Assembly (NCBI RefSeq): GCF_019343195.1
Contig: NZ_RPHB01000003.1
Coordinates: 248,001 to 312,000 of the forward strand
Reading direction: 5' to 3'
From: Arthrospiribacter ruber
GTDB taxonomy: Bacteria; Bacteroidota; Bacteroidia; Cytophagales; Cyclobacteriaceae
Length of the DNA: 64,000 nucleotides
Of this stretch, positions 40,820-52,360 are shown one piece after another. Below the pieces are notes generated by a model that worked only from the letters and a program-made list of their open reading frames with translations, had not been told where the DNA came from and did not search any database. The position numbers were made by a program, and so were the translations under genes. Numbering within the stretch: the first letter of the stretch is position 1; each line of letters opens with the position of its first letter.

Positions 40820-41905
40820 ATGAGCTTATTTCACCTTCAAACCAAAATCGGTCGACAAATTATCAGAGACAATAAAGAATATTTGTATTTCAGTGGTACA
40901 GATTATTTAGGAATGGGAACCTCCAAAGAGTTTGAGGACTTGGTTATCCGGGGAATCAAAAATTTGGGTCTTAATCATGGATTAAGCAGAATCAATAATG
41001 TTCGACTGAATATATTTGATCAGTTTGAGAACTATTTCGCGGAAAAATCAGGAGCCGATAAGGCCATGGTCTGGAGCAGCGGCTACCTGGCTGGTTATGC
41101 TACTGTCAATTACTTGCTGGATTTTACAGATTATATATTTATTGCACCTGATACACATCCGGCGATACTTCCTGAGGAATTGAACCCGGATCCTAATCAG
41201 ACTTTTGAAGACTGGAAAGAGCATGTCAAGGAAATGTGCGAGACGCTTAAATCGCAGAGGATTCTTATTCTGGCCAATGCTGTAGACCCTTTGAAGCCAT
41301 CTGTACACGACTTCAGCTGGATTGGTTACCTTCCAAGGAAACATCAATACACTTTTTTGGTCGATGACAGCCATGCTTTCGGTACTGTGGGAGAAGATAT
41401 ATACGGGACTTATAACAGGTGGAAGTTTTTGCCTGTAGAGCTAGTGGTATCAGGGTCACTTGGCAAGGGCCTCGGAATGCCTGCAGGGATCACATTGGGG
41501 CCTGTGCAGCAGTTGATAGGTATTGGAAACAGAAAAATATTCCGTTCGGCATCTCCTCCTCCTCAGGCTTATCTATGGGCTTTTTTGCAAGCACAGGATC
41601 TCTTTAGGGAACGCTTTCAGACCTTACAGAAAAACAAATCATACTTTAACTCTGTAATCAATAAGATTTCAGGATTAGAAAATGATGCAAACTTTCCTGT
41701 ATACGCTTTCAAAAATAGGAGGTGGGTCAGTCAGTTAGAAGAGGAAGGGATTATCATCAGTTCTTTCCCATATCCAGAACCTACTGATCCTTGGATCAAT
41801 AGGATTGTATTGTCTGCCCATCATGAACAGGAGGACTTGGAAAGATTGTATAGAATTTTGGAAAAGATTCAGGGGCAGCTGCAAAAGTCCACTATTCTCA
41901 CTTGA
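40820..41905 (+). CDS. alpha-oxoamine synthase-like PLP enzyme (BioF/KBL fold)
   Basis: A 361-residue fold-type I PLP enzyme related to 8-amino-7-oxononanoate synthase and 2-amino-3-ketobutyrate CoA ligase. Visible landmarks are YLYFSGTDYLGMG near the N-terminus, the PLP-aspartate region VDDSHAFGTVG (about 181-191) and the Schiff-base Lys216 in SGSLGKGLGMPAG. It is 20-30 residues shorter than typical BioF and the motifs around the Lys are atypical, so a different acyl or amino substrate is likely. It is followed 17 bp later by the beta-lactamase-fold lipoprotein, suggesting co-transcription. Confidence 0.8.
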   Translation: MSLFHLQTKIGRQIIRDNKEYLYFSGTDYLGMGTSKEFEDLVIRGIKNLGLNHGLSRINNVRLNIFDQFENYFAEKSGADKAMVWSSGYLAGYATVNYLLDFTDYIFIAPDTHPAILPEELNPDPNQTFEDWKEHVKEMCETLKSQRILILANAVDPLKPSVHDFSWIGYLPRKHQYTFLVDDSHAFGTVGEDIYGTYNRWKFLPVELVVSGSLGKGLGMPAGITLGPVQQLIGIGNRKIFRSASPPPQAYLWAFLQAQDLFRERFQTLQKNKSYFNSVINKISGLENDANFPVYAFKNRRWVSQLEEEGIIISSFPYPEPTDPWINRIVLSAHHEQEDLERLYRILEKIQGQLQKSTILT

Positions 41906-41922
41906 AATTTAAATAGGTAATT

Positions 41923-43158
41923 ATGCGTTTTCTTGGATTTTTTTCACTTCTACTAGTGTACTTTTTGGTGAGTTGTAATCAAAAAGATGCCGGAATTTTC
42001 AAAAACGTTTCTGAAGAATACCCTATTCTGAAGGAAGTTTTGGAAAACGCGGACAAGTATCAGGTACAGATTAAATACACCCAAATAGACCGTAGTGAGA
42101 GCAATGACCCTGTTTTTAAGCATTTTGAATTTAACCTTGACGACGGTCGGTATTTTTACCCTGCTTCTACCGTGAAGCTTCCTGTTGCAGTATTGGCTCT
42201 TGAGTGGCTTTCCGAGCAAGATGTTTTTGGGCTATCAAAAGAGAGTGCCATGGTCACAGATTCGATAAGGGAATCACAGGTGCCAGCCTTCGCTGATAGT
42301 ACTTCTGCCAATCTCATGCCCAGCATTGCTCATTATATTAAGAAAATCCTTTTGGTAAGTGATAATGATGCCTATAACAGACTCTATGAGCTTTTGGGTC
42401 AGGATTATATCAATCATAAAATGAAGGAAAAAGGTCTGAATCACACAGTGATCAACCATCGTTTGAGTATGCCAATGAGCCCTGAAGAGAACCGTCATTT
42501 TAATCCTATAAAGTTTGTGGATTTTGAAGGTCAGGTGATTTTGGAATTGCCGGGCAGGGAAGCATCAAATGCCTATTCTGTAGAAGGGAATCCAAGTATA
42601 GGAAAAGCATATGTGAGCGGAGGTGAAAAGGTCTCAGAACCCATGGATTTTACTTTCAAAAACAAGTATGCGCTTTCGGATTTTCATGGCACTGTGATGC
42701 GGTTGGTTTTTCCTGAAAAGTTTGATTCGGCACAGCGTTTTCATATCTCGGAAGAGGACAGGCTATTTGTGCTGAAATATATGTCCATGCTTCCCGGAGA
42801 AAGTGATTATCCCAAATATGAATTGCCGGAGTTTTATGACAGTTATTCGAAGTTTGTGAAGTTTGGAACCGATAAAAATCCTATTCCTGACAACTTTAGG
42901 ATCTTCAACAAGACAGGCATGGCTTATGGGCATTTATTGGACGGGGTGTACTTTGTGGACTTCGAAAACAAGGTGGAGTTTTTTGTTTCGGCGGTCATTT
43001 ATGTCAATGCTAACGAAACCCTCAATGACAACGAGTATGAATTTGAAGAAATAGCATTTCCCTTTTATGCTGAACTGGGAGAATACCTTTATCAGCGGGA
43101 GTTGAAAAGAGAAAGAAAGGTAAAACCTGACCTGAGCGAATTTTTATTTTCTTATTGA
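41923..43158 (+). CDS. serine hydrolase lipoprotein with class A beta-lactamase motifs
   Basis: A 411-residue lipoprotein (lipobox FLVSC, Cys18) of the beta-lactamase/transpeptidase fold. All three active-site motifs are present: Ser82-x-x-Lys85 (STVK), Ser146-Asp-Asn148 (SDN) and Lys330-Thr-Gly332 (KTG). The order and spacing match class A serine beta-lactamases. However, the protein is about 120 residues longer, with inserted segments, and I cannot identify an equivalent of the deacylation Glu166. It may be a penicillin-binding or D-amino-peptidase-type enzyme rather than an antibiotic-resistance enzyme. It probably shares a transcript with the upstream PLP enzyme. Confidence 0.83.
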   Translation: MRFLGFFSLLLVYFLVSCNQKDAGIFKNVSEEYPILKEVLENADKYQVQIKYTQIDRSESNDPVFKHFEFNLDDGRYFYPASTVKLPVAVLALEWLSEQDVFGLSKESAMVTDSIRESQVPAFADSTSANLMPSIAHYIKKILLVSDNDAYNRLYELLGQDYINHKMKEKGLNHTVINHRLSMPMSPEENRHFNPIKFVDFEGQVILELPGREASNAYSVEGNPSIGKAYVSGGEKVSEPMDFTFKNKYALSDFHGTVMRLVFPEKFDSAQRFHISEEDRLFVLKYMSMLPGESDYPKYELPEFYDSYSKFVKFGTDKNPIPDNFRIFNKTGMAYGHLLDGVYFVDFENKVEFFVSAVIYVNANETLNDNEYEFEEIAFPFYAELGEYLYQRELKRERKVKPDLSEFLFSY

Positions 43159-43286: not shown

Positions 43287-44033
43287 TCAGTTTCCGTGTT
43301 CAGCCATGAACTTGTCCAAGTCTTTCAATGTGATTATTCCTTCATAATAGGCCCTACCAAACACCACAGAAGTGACTCCTGCTTCTTTTAGCTTGATGAA
43401 ATCATCCGTATTTCTCACACCTCCACTAGCTGCCAGACGGATACCCTGAAATTTGTCCACAATTTCCTTGTAAAGATCAAGGTTGGGGCCTTCCATTACC
43501 CCATCACGGGTCACATCAGAGCATTTTAGGTACTTTAATCCTCTTTCATAGAAAAATTCTATATGGTCAAAAAGGTCAATTTCGGTTTTTTTCTGCCATC
43601 CTCTGACTTTGATTTTGTGGTCGGCAGGATTGGTGTCAGCTGCCATGAAGATTTTTTCACGGCCATAGGACATGATCCACTGGGAGAACCTTTCAGGATA
43701 TGCAGCAGCTACAGATGCGGCTGTAATGGCATTTGCACCATTTTCCAATGCCTTTAATACGTCACCATCAGTTGAAATACCTCCAGTGAAATCCACTTTG
43801 AGGTTGGTATATCCGGTAATGGCTTCCAGGATGTGGTAATTTTTCGGTTCACCTCTCCTTGCACCATCCAGATCCACTAAATGAAGCCAGCGGATTCCAT
43901 GATCTTCAAAAGCCTGTGCAATTTCTACAGGGTTGTTGGAAATGACTTCCTGTGTCGCAAAGTCGCCTCTTTTGAGACGGACACATTTGCCGTCAATCAG
44001 CCATATTGAGGGTATGATATCAAATGTTTCCAT
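43287..44033 (-). CDS. HisA-like TIM barrel lacking the first catalytic Asp
   Basis: A 248-residue TIM barrel clearly related to HisA, the ProFAR isomerase of histidine synthesis. Retained features are LIDGKCVRL, HLVDLDGA, DVTRDGVMEGPN and the C-terminal phosphate motif ASGGVRNTDDF with VVFGRAYYEG. The N-terminal catalytic aspartate of the PAIDL motif is replaced: the sequence reads PSIWLIDG, with Trp11 in the Asp position. The second catalytic Asp (Asp133 in AADTNP) remains. The other phosphate site is altered (TAAS for the usual IGT). It stands alone, outside any his operon. It is probably a divergent paralogue with another function, not the histidine enzyme. Confidence 0.82.
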   Translation of the reverse strand: METFDIIPSIWLIDGKCVRLKRGDFATQEVISNNPVEIAQAFEDHGIRWLHLVDLDGARRGEPKNYHILEAITGYTNLKVDFTGGISTDGDVLKALENGANAITAASVAAAYPERFSQWIMSYGREKIFMAADTNPADHKIKVRGWQKKTEIDLFDHIEFFYERGLKYLKCSDVTRDGVMEGPNLDLYKEIVDKFQGIRLAASGGVRNTDDFIKLKEAGVTSVVFGRAYYEGIITLKDLDKFMAEHGN

Positions 44034-44056
44034 TAGGGTAAGATGTGGTCTAGAGT

Positions 44057-44064
44057 CAAATATA
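44057..44064 (-). promoter_or_regulatory. candidate -7 promoter element of the HisA-like gene
   Basis: On the minus strand TATATTTG, an exact TAnnTTTG match, lies 23 bases before the ATG. Confidence 0.5.
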
Positions 44065-44234
44065 GAGCTGACAATATAACTAAAATAATAAAATCTGTTT
44101 TGTCAGGGTACTAAATATAATAGAGAATACGTGGATTTGGTAATTCTCTTCCGAATAGTTTGAAAATTAAAATTTCAAAATAGTGATATTCATGTCAATA
44201 ACTTAATTTTGAGGAGTTAACTTTTGATGAAGAT

Positions 44235-49552: not shown

Positions 49553-52360
49553 ATGAAGAAAGCTTTTTGTCTCCTGCTTGTGTTTCTTTTTTTCAAAGAA
49601 GTAGTAACGGCTCAATCCTGGAGAAGAGTGGGAGGTTGGGGCAATCAATTTACAGGAATAGTTTGGGTCAATGAAGAGGTCGGGTATATTTCCGGCAATC
49701 AGGTTATACTCAAATCCATAGATGGAGGACTCAGCTGGACTGAACAGGAAGCCCCTACCAAAAACAGGATGCTTGCTGTGGATTTTGTCAATGAGACGCT
49801 TGGTCTGATGGTTGGTGAAAATGGGCAGGTATACAGGACTACCAATGGGGGCAGCTCATGGCAATTGGTGAATATTGGGACAAGTGTCAGATTGAACAAA
49901 GTCAAATTCCTTACTGCAAGTAGGGCATACATTATTGGTGAGGGTGGCGAAACCTACAGATCCACCAATGGCGGGCAATCCTGGGCTAGGCAAAACATAG
50001 GCACTAACGCTGACCTTCATGGGCTGTATTTTGCTAATGCCGATACAGGTTATGTAGCTGCCGCAAATGGACAAGTGATCCGGACTTTTAATGGGGGAAA
50101 TAACTGGTCAAGCAGCAATACCGGTCAAAATATGCCACTGAATGATGTTTATTTTGTAAATGGAAATACCGGGTATGTGGTGGGCAACCAAGGGACCATT
50201 CTCAAGACAGTCAATGCCGGCAACAATTGGGAAAGAATCAATTCTGGTACTGAGAGAAACCTGCTTTCTGTGGCATTTAACCGCTCAAACACTAATTTGG
50301 GTGTGATTACAGGTGAAAATGCCACGCTGATGAGGACCACCAATGCAGGTCTTACTTTTGATGGTATCAACATCAATAATACCGAAAGTTATGTAGATGT
50401 AGCATTTAGGACCAATTCGAATCTTGTTTTTGGGGTAGGGACCAATGGATTTTTGATTTCTTCTACCAATTCAGGACAAAGTTGGTCTCTGAGGCTTTCG
50501 GGAAGGGAGATAGATTATACAGGAACTCAATTCAGGACAGCTACTTTAGGTTATATCATAGGGCCAAACGGCAGGGTTTTTTCCACCAACAATGGGGGAA
50601 ACACTTTGGTGGATAGGTCAAGGCCACTTTCTATTACTTTTAACGGGTTGTTTTTTACCACCAATGCATTCGGTTATATCGCCGGAGACAATGGCAATAT
50701 CCTGCGTACTACCAATTCTGGCGGCAACTGGACTTCTCTGAATCCAGGTACCAACCAGAATATCAATGGGCTGTTCTTTTTCAACAATAACCTAGGATAT
50801 GCAGTGGGGAATGCTGGGTTTCTGACGAAAACTGAAAATGCCGGGGTCAATTGGGAAGTCATCAATATTGGAAATACTTCTTTTAATTTTCGTTCTATAG
50901 CTTTCTTTGATCAGGAATCCGGCTTACTTACCGGATCGGGTGGTTTTGTGGCCAGAATGGAAAATGACAGCTGGTCGAGGATTGCTTCAGGGACCAATGA
51001 AAACCTGAATGCCCTGGCTATTTTGGATGAAACTTCTGCCATCGCAATAGGCAATCGTGGCACCATCATCAAGACTTCTGATAAAGGTGCAAGCTGGAGC
51101 AGGATCAATACTTCTTTTAACCAAAATCTCAATGATGTGGAGTTTTTGGACGAATCGGTAGGGTTTATCGCCGGTGAAAGAGGGCTGATTATTCAGACAA
51201 AAGATGGTGGAGAAACATGGGAAAGATTGGTGACCTCTACATTTCAGGATTTTACCGGAATCAGCTTCGGTACCTTAAGCAATGGTTTTGCAGTAGGAGA
51301 AAAAGGGAGTTTATTCAATTACGACTGTCAGGTTCCGGAGACCCCGACTGTGATTTTTGGTGAAAATAATATATGTCTGAGCCAGCAGGTTTACACAGTA
51401 CAGGAAGCATTGGAATTGGATACTGAATTTGAGTGGAGAGTAGATGGGGGGAGTATACTTGAGGGCCAGGGAACGTCCAGAATTGTAGTGGAGTGGGATG
51501 TCCCGGGAAGAAATGCGGTTTTGGTGAGAGGAAGGAATTTCTGTGGAAATGGAGGCACTACCGGGCTGGAAGTGCTGGTTTCTACAGAGCCAAGAGATAT
51601 CCCTGAGATTGAAGGGGAAGGAGCCGTATGCTTGGAGAGTTTTATGGAATACAGCGTCCCGGATGTGCCGGGTACCACATTTATCTGGGAAGTCGACGGA
51701 GGTCTGATCACCGAGGGGCAGGGCACAAACAGCATCGTAGTGCGATGGATCAATGTCAATCAGCAAAATGTACGGGTTACTCCTTCGAATCCCTGCGGAA
51801 ACGGAGAAGTTTCGCTCAAAGAAATCATGGTGCAGACTCCGCCTCAGTTGCCTTCTGTCATTGAAGGTCCGGATATGGTAGGATTGACCGAAGAAGTGTA
51901 TACTGTTACCAATGTAGCGGATGTCAATTATCAGTGGAGAATAAGTGGCCAAGGGGGCAGAATTCTTGATGGCCAAGGAAGCAATTCCATACGGGTGCAA
52001 TGGGAAAGGGAAGGAGATTTTACGATCACTGTAACACCTGAAAACGGTTGTGACCAAGGGGAGGCACAAACTCTAGCTGTCAACGTCAACTTGATCACTT
52101 CTATCATCGAAAGACCAATAGAACAAGCCTCAGTTTCTGTTTACCCCAATCCTTCCAGCGGTGATTTTCACCTTAGTATTAAGGGCATACATGGCGTGAG
52201 GAAGATCAGCGTGTACAATGCACTTGGACAGACATTGAATGAAATAAGCCCAAGCGAGGGAGTGGAGCAGTTTAAATTTGAAAATATGCCGAAAGGTCTG
52301 CATACCATCAGTATTCAGACCCGTGAGCAGGAGATTTTCAAAAAAATACTTGTAAAATAA
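49553..52360 (+). CDS. YCF48-repeat T9SS cargo with type A sorting tail
   Basis: A 935-residue secreted protein. The signal peptide ends near EVVTAQSW. Twelve or so YCF48-type repeats (about 25-590) follow, each with a variant of GNNWE..NSGT...N....F.N...GYVVG.QG.I. Next come three PKD/Ig-like repeats (about 600-840) built around EFEWRVDGGSILEGQGTS-type strands. The C-terminus is a type A sorting domain starting SVYPNPSSGDFHLSI and ending KKILVK. It is thus a T9SS substrate using the type A pathway, unlike the two type B cargos. The propeller may bind protein or polysaccharide. Monocistronic, with its own TATTTTTG element. Confidence 0.9.
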   Translation: MKKAFCLLLVFLFFKEVVTAQSWRRVGGWGNQFTGIVWVNEEVGYISGNQVILKSIDGGLSWTEQEAPTKNRMLAVDFVNETLGLMVGENGQVYRTTNGGSSWQLVNIGTSVRLNKVKFLTASRAYIIGEGGETYRSTNGGQSWARQNIGTNADLHGLYFANADTGYVAAANGQVIRTFNGGNNWSSSNTGQNMPLNDVYFVNGNTGYVVGNQGTILKTVNAGNNWERINSGTERNLLSVAFNRSNTNLGVITGENATLMRTTNAGLTFDGININNTESYVDVAFRTNSNLVFGVGTNGFLISSTNSGQSWSLRLSGREIDYTGTQFRTATLGYIIGPNGRVFSTNNGGNTLVDRSRPLSITFNGLFFTTNAFGYIAGDNGNILRTTNSGGNWTSLNPGTNQNINGLFFFNNNLGYAVGNAGFLTKTENAGVNWEVINIGNTSFNFRSIAFFDQESGLLTGSGGFVARMENDSWSRIASGTNENLNALAILDETSAIAIGNRGTIIKTSDKGASWSRINTSFNQNLNDVEFLDESVGFIAGERGLIIQTKDGGETWERLVTSTFQDFTGISFGTLSNGFAVGEKGSLFNYDCQVPETPTVIFGENNICLSQQVYTVQEALELDTEFEWRVDGGSILEGQGTSRIVVEWDVPGRNAVLVRGRNFCGNGGTTGLEVLVSTEPRDIPEIEGEGAVCLESFMEYSVPDVPGTTFIWEVDGGLITEGQGTNSIVVRWINVNQQNVRVTPSNPCGNGEVSLKEIMVQTPPQLPSVIEGPDMVGLTEEVYTVTNVADVNYQWRISGQGGRILDGQGSNSIRVQWEREGDFTITVTPENGCDQGEAQTLAVNVNLITSIIERPIEQASVSVYPNPSSGDFHLSIKGIHGVRKISVYNALGQTLNEISPSEGVEQFKFENMPKGLHTISIQTREQEIFKKILVK

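Follow-up and report, generated by a model that had tools for sequence, protein, structure and literature searches.

A gene of the HisA family in Arthrospiribacter ruber that encodes tryptophan where HisA has its first catalytic aspartate raises the question of whether its product is still a ProFAR isomerase and, if it is not, what else it might do. The gene, called HisA2 here, lies in a 64,000-nucleotide stretch of contig NZ_RPHB01000003.1 that is referred to as the window. Its open reading frame is on the minus strand and runs from 44033 to 43287, an orientation that the preliminary description of the locus had omitted:

43287..44033, minus strand: HisA-family paralogue (HisA2), 248 amino acids with an ATG start, from the open reading frame and its translation

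HisA2 has both the domain and the fold of the HisA/HisF-type barrel superfamily (PF00977). A full-length His_biosynth domain covers residues 6-235 (PF00977, E 2.2e-61, Pfam), and the AlphaFold2 model is a barrel (pLDDT 93.2, pTM 0.90) whose top Foldseek match is Salmonella enterica HisA, with a TM score of 0.91. Against the NCBIfam HisA equivalog, TIGR00007, the protein scores 206.6 bits, below the cut-off of 228.95; other paralogues score 190-218 bits, and the canonical HisA proteins of the window genome and of three others tested pass with 245-264 bits. Scores against HisF-type families are 60-70 bits (cut-offs near 300), that against the PriA model TIGR01919 is 136.6 bits (cut-off 306.45), and that against the DeoC family is 23.1 bits (cut-off 117.3). 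A Pfam scan of HisA2 found no match to the TrpF domain, PF00697.

The window genome (100% complete) contains three HisA/HisF-like genes, namely HisA2, hisA and hisF. The canonical hisA, a gene that the preliminary description had proposed to look for in the his operon, was found between hisH and hisF on a different contig (G000:C16:416343-417056), and its product is 46% identical to HisA2; HisA2 is outside any his operon, as had been stated. The trpF gene, with trpC adjoining, is at C1:495121, and the PRAI matches of this genome are on C1 and C16, not at the HisA2 locus on C14. Since canonical hisA and trpF are both present elsewhere in the genome, HisA2 is a true paralogue of HisA and replaces neither gene. 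A second, distant TrpF-like (PRAI) gene, scoring 29.6 bits, occurs at G000:C16:234718-235302, and weak second PRAI matches of this sort recur elsewhere in the order, in several genomes.

The residues that distinguish HisA2 from HisA, and those that the two share, are located as follows, with S. enterica numbering taken from the alignment:

44001..44003, minus strand: codon 11, TGG (Trp), at the first catalytic aspartate (S. enterica Asp7), strand 1; from the DNA and the alignment
43785..43787, minus strand: codon 83, Thr, at the first glycine of the phosphate 2 (distal) motif (Gly79), end of strand 3; from the alignment
43716..43718, minus strand: codon 106, Ala, at S. enterica Gly102, phosphate 2 site; from the alignment
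43659..43661, minus strand: codon 125, Arg, typical of the paralogues (76 of 86) and different from the canonical HisA residue
43635..43637, minus strand: codon 133, Asp, equivalent to S. enterica Asp129, in 84 of 86 paralogues; from the alignment
43524..43526, minus strand: codon 170, Lys, strand 6, equivalent to S. enterica Leu169; from the alignment and the model
43503..43505, minus strand: codon 177, Asp, equivalent to S. enterica Asp176, the second catalytic aspartate; from the alignment

Asp7 of S. enterica HisA is taken here to be the general base, in line with the D7N structures among the Foldseek matches. We aligned 86 paralogous loci, to which two genomes contribute two each, with a canonical set of 66 sequences that includes one HisF. 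The strand-1 catalytic aspartate of HisA (Asp7/Asp8), replaced by Trp11 in the window copy, is present in all 66 canonical sequences and in none of the paralogues, where position 11 is Ser (32 loci), Trp (14), Thr (13), Ala (12), Tyr (5) or another residue. Lys170, which sits in strand 6 (residues 168-171) of the AlphaFold model, is found in 86 of 86 paralogues, a set chosen by this lysine itself, versus none of the 66 canonical sequences; in a smaller alignment, whose group was picked by the absence of Asp11, it is present in 57 of 57, and no aligned sequence is without both Lys170 and Asp11. The variability of position 11, which is never Asp, and the constancy of Lys170 argue that Trp11 is incidental, that loss of the aspartate is general to the clade, and that the gained Lys170 is its hallmark, as judged from the alignments. 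The distal phosphate motif has diverged as well: position 83 is Thr, Ser or Ala in 70 of the paralogues and Gly in the other 16, position 106 is Ala or Ser in 69 of 86, and each is Gly in 65 of the 66 canonical sequences. The second catalytic aspartate of HisA, in the loop after strand 6, is retained in the window copy as Asp177; it is present in 72 of the 86 paralogues and lost in 14. Glycines 204 and 205 of the proximal phosphate site are invariant in the paralogues, and the window copy carries the proximal SGG/GR motifs at 204-205 and 226-227. Thus, of the two phosphate sites of HisA, the proximal one appears to be retained in HisA2 and the distal one to be changed, at positions 83 and 106.

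Much of this had been anticipated. Translation and alignment confirm PSIW in the place of PAID, with the TGG of codon 11 at 44003-44001, and the features reported as retained, namely Asp133, the DVTRDG loop containing Asp177 and the C-terminal SGG/GR motifs, are indeed there. The reported TAAS for IGT holds in substance, but the corresponding motif of relatives is TGGS and the change at the site itself is Gly to Ala at 106; the change of Gly to Thr at 83 had been missed. Two corrections apply: Trp, which the preliminary description had singled out, is one of several residues at this position, and the hallmark is Lys170; neither the lysine nor the lack of conservation of Trp among relatives had been recognized. 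The proposal that HisA2 has lost ProFAR isomerase activity and acquired another role is supported, at the level of sequence, by the canonical hisA elsewhere in the genome, by the loss of the first catalytic Asp from all 86 paralogues and of the second from some, by their forming a clade, by purifying selection and by retention of the gene in genomes that lack the pathway.

A copy of the HisA2 type is present in 32 of 37 genomes of the same family, and in one of these, G022, no other type occurs. A paralogue profile, run against 291 genomes of the order, found HisA2 in all same-family genomes among the matches listed and in further families (f4, f5, f6, f9, f15, f16, f19 and one of f21), but not in families such as f2, f11 and f13. 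In the calibration set this profile parts the two types, paralogues scoring at least 343 bits and canonical HisA at most 320, and in the whole order, where the two score ranges touch near 320-330 bits, types were assigned by score and, for those loci that were fetched, by residues also. A class-wide sample of 395 genomes, few of them from this order, contained HisA2 in the same family only. Named loci include those of Belliella, Aquiflexum, Algoriphagus, Litoribacter, Roseivirga and Chryseolinea. In a tree built from 42 paralogues together with 34 canonical sequences, by a quick method and with its root unsure, the HisF outgroup being on a long branch, the paralogues form one clade (SH-aLRT 100) within which most families cluster; on this topology a recent local duplication is rejected. 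Three canonical HisA sequences (L222, L225 and L226, from G014, G036 and G050) fall outside the main Cytophagales HisA group, a placement that may reflect gene transfer. Close paralogue pairs have pN of 0.015-0.024 versus pS of 0.33-0.60. HisA2 is under strong purifying selection and is an old, retained gene; a decaying copy is ruled out by the low pN/pS and by the intact frame in almost all members. HisA2 is a HisA-derived subfamily that is widespread in one order, among Cytophagales/Cyclobacteriaceae-type organisms; its origin in one old duplication is part of the explanation that we favor, which as a whole we hold with slightly less than even confidence.

Several genomes retain HisA2 and lack the pathways in which HisA and TrpF act. 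G022 (94% complete) has HisA2 and is without canonical hisA, hisF, hisB, hisD, trpC and trpF; G478 (100% complete) and G614 (96%) keep it without canonical hisA, any hisF above the cut-off, or trpC, the sole PRAI match of G614 being marginal (23 bits). G520 and G041 are also without canonical hisA, and their HisF-like genes are all below the HisF cut-off. HisA2 occurs without TrpC in G022, G478, G493, G520 and G614, in which TrpF is either absent or represented by the marginal match of G614. These are draft assemblies in which a single absence is uncertain, but the pattern across several genes and genomes is not. An imidazoleglycerol-phosphate dehydratase domain is encoded in G041 at C72:4388-4807 (L210), and neither hisD nor canonical hisA was found in that genome. 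The favored explanation, with the same near-even but incomplete confidence, places the reaction of HisA2 outside histidine and tryptophan synthesis. HisA2 is very probably no longer a ProFAR isomerase, because the aspartate base is gone from all members, a canonical hisA is present, and the gene is kept where the pathway is missing; the loss of the residues for this isomerization is well supported by the alignments.

The explanation that we consider best, although we would put its chances just short of even, is that HisA2 is a neofunctionalized HisA-derived barrel that uses a mono-phosphorylated ligand by means of Lys170. ProFAR isomerization would have been given up, with the general base gone and the distal phosphate site eroded in most members. 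The proximal site, formed by strands 7 and 8, probably still holds one phosphate, and Lys170 is predicted to be a new key residue that lies next to Asp133 and is directed from strand 6 toward the barrel interior; we hold both points with moderate confidence. The ligand would then be smaller and mono-phosphorylated, and Lys170 would act on it together with Asp133. By analogy with class I aldolases, Lys170 might form an imine or serve in acid/base chemistry on a small compound, a carbonyl or an amino sugar, that carries one phosphate. Alternatively, it might bind a carboxylate, as does Arg169 of evolved Salmonella HisA, which in simulations contacts Asp129 and the substrate carboxylate, in a study that treats Asp176 as a catalytic aspartate (PMC9088769). 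Our confidence that Lys170 is a catalytic or ligand-binding residue is moderate, and in its chemistry weak; the lysine could equally be structural or serve in binding alone. Against this explanation, an enzyme would not usually show the variation seen at position 11 and at Asp177, unless neither residue takes part, and no neighboring gene is common to all HisA2 lineages among the 86 loci.

In the window, HisA2 follows a YCF48/BNR-repeat gene and faces a beta-lactamase-like gene (41923-43158), and no HisH-type amidotransferase gene is linked to it. The gap upstream is:

44034..44234, minus strand: 201-bp gap between the same-strand YCF48/BNR-repeat gene and HisA2

From its length and position this gap probably holds a promoter of HisA2's own; a scan of it for consensus promoters gave matches at chance level. 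Adjoining the beta-lactamase-like gene is a gene for a short BioF/KBL-like PLP enzyme (40820-41905, 361 amino acids), which scores well under the bioF cut-off. Elsewhere in the window, 49553-52360 encodes a predicted secreted protein of 935 amino acids with repeated YCF48/BNR-like units, recognized by eye; its C-terminal end reads like a sorting tail, and its repeat type resembles that of the gene upstream of HisA2.

Gene neighborhoods in other lineages bear on what else HisA2 might be. At 24 of the 86 loci HisA2 lies directly downstream of an RprY-like response regulator gene on the same strand, itself preceded by a kinase gene. Together with the variation of both HisA catalytic positions within the clade, and with the fact that the best-kept features are the binding glycines, Asp133 and Lys170, this arrangement would suit a non-catalytic barrel that binds a phosphorylated metabolite, through one phosphate and a carboxylate that Lys170 would hold, and that serves as a sensor or partner, for example of the neighboring two-component system. 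We judge this unlikely, though not negligibly so. The kinase/regulator pair occurs in only some of the lineages, that of the window not among them, and because the neighborhood is lineage-specific, partnership with a two-component system is not taken as the general function and is kept as a rival only; furthermore, a charged residue that never varies, deep within the barrel, suits catalysis at least as well. Where the pair occurs (L039, L040, L043 and 21 others), murF-alr and csaA are often close.

A role in tryptophan synthesis, with HisA2 as a binder of PRA or CdRP or as an auxiliary phosphoribosylanthranilate isomerase of the TrpF type, is suggested by the laboratory evolution of S. enterica HisA, in which single changes that confer TrpF activity include L169R and G79R, each with loss of HisA activity, and later changes recur at the distal-phosphate residues 80, 81, 83 and 102 (PMC7591586). 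Lys170 occupies the position of L169R, the phosphate 2 site of HisA2 is eroded as in evolved HisA, and in two f16 genera HisA2 ends a trp operon of trpD/C-F-B-A, 22-25 nt after trpA (L196, L197 and L198, in G519, G532 and G556). A true TrpF, however, is encoded by the window genome and by the f16 operons just named, HisA2 is kept in five genomes without TrpC, and the aspartate base of the laboratory variants is missing, so that we consider the role improbable; outright replacement of TrpF is ruled out by these trpF genes and by the survival of HisA2 without trp genes. A tie to lysine or peptidoglycan metabolism through neighboring lysA is more doubtful still: lysA is directly upstream at nine loci from at least four families, divergently in eight of the nine (L206, L059, L199, L207, L209, L071, L057, L086 and L055), and within four genes at 17 of 86, but most loci, that of the window included, have no lysA nearby, a conserved gene order can be passed on without any link in function, and HisA2 has no sequence feature of diaminopimelate chemistry. 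Finally, the window copy has an intact HisA fold, an intact proximal phosphate site and both Asp133 and Asp177, as would a back-up HisA that is still a ProFAR isomerase. We give this reading almost no credence, as the base is missing in all members, a canonical hisA is present and HisA2 persists in genomes that lack the histidine pathway; it was rejected on the residues, the equivalog score and this retention.

We therefore continue to favor a neofunctionalized barrel that uses a mono-phosphorylated ligand. Its most specific form, in which HisA after duplication exchanged its aspartate-based Amadori chemistry for a lysine-based reaction, by way of an imine or of acid/base catalysis, on a mono-phosphorylated metabolite, in a pathway retained without histidine or tryptophan synthesis, is possible but on balance unlikely. 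Retention of HisA2 without these syntheses points to an unrecognized metabolic step, for which Lys170 is a clear first target, and in many Cytophagales genomes annotation is likely to label the protein a second HisA.

No description of the HisA2 paralogue was found in the literature searched, with respect to which it is a widespread and new HisA-derived subfamily within a known kind of protein; a survey of his genes in the superphylum, in the part of its text available, notes extra copies of hisH and hisF and no such copy of hisA (PMC8305728). Its closest likeness is to HisA itself (TIGR00007/PF00977; 5a5w, 5ahe), with which it shares the whole-length fold, the proximal phosphate motifs and, in the window copy, Asp133, Trp146 (S. 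enterica Trp145) and Asp177; it differs in the replaced first aspartate, Thr83 and Ala106 at the distal site, the invariant Lys170, a score below the equivalog cut-off and a location outside the his operon. HisF and HisF2/WbuZ/AglZ belong to the same superfamily and have the same double phosphate-site design, but HisA2 scores far below their cut-offs and has no linked HisH-type gene. PriA, the bifunctional HisA/TrpF of Actinomycetota, is likewise a HisA-family barrel of altered specificity; it keeps its Asp11 base, however, and serves genomes without trpF, whereas the HisA2 genome has trpF.

The likeness to the class I aldolases DeoC and LsrF is one of analogy, a strand-6 lysine near a phosphate site at strands 7 and 8, and the sequence relation of HisA2 to DeoC is marginal. 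An hhalign alignment of canonical HisA to DeoC placed the DeoC lysine on the Lys170 column. The match was weak (probability 18-21%), and it was not reproduced with the paralogue profile, which put DeoC on the other half-barrel; the idea that homology to DeoC proves a lysine mechanism was rejected on these weak and inconsistent alignments. The lysine of LsrF is on strand 6. In class I aldolases the lysine is structurally conserved, and LsrF holds phosphate at strands 7-8 (PMC2728841). The L169R and other laboratory-evolved TrpF variants of HisA (5g2h, PMC7591586) resemble HisA2 in the basic residue at 169/170, the altered phosphate 2 site and the loss of HisA function, but they keep Asp7, whereas HisA2 has lost the aspartate and has a separate TrpF in its genome. 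HisA is a textbook model of a barrel enzyme that changes substrate after duplication, mostly through laboratory evolution, and the HisA2 clade is a natural, long-lived counterpart in which the same sites, Leu169 and phosphate 2, have changed and the aspartate base has been dropped as well.
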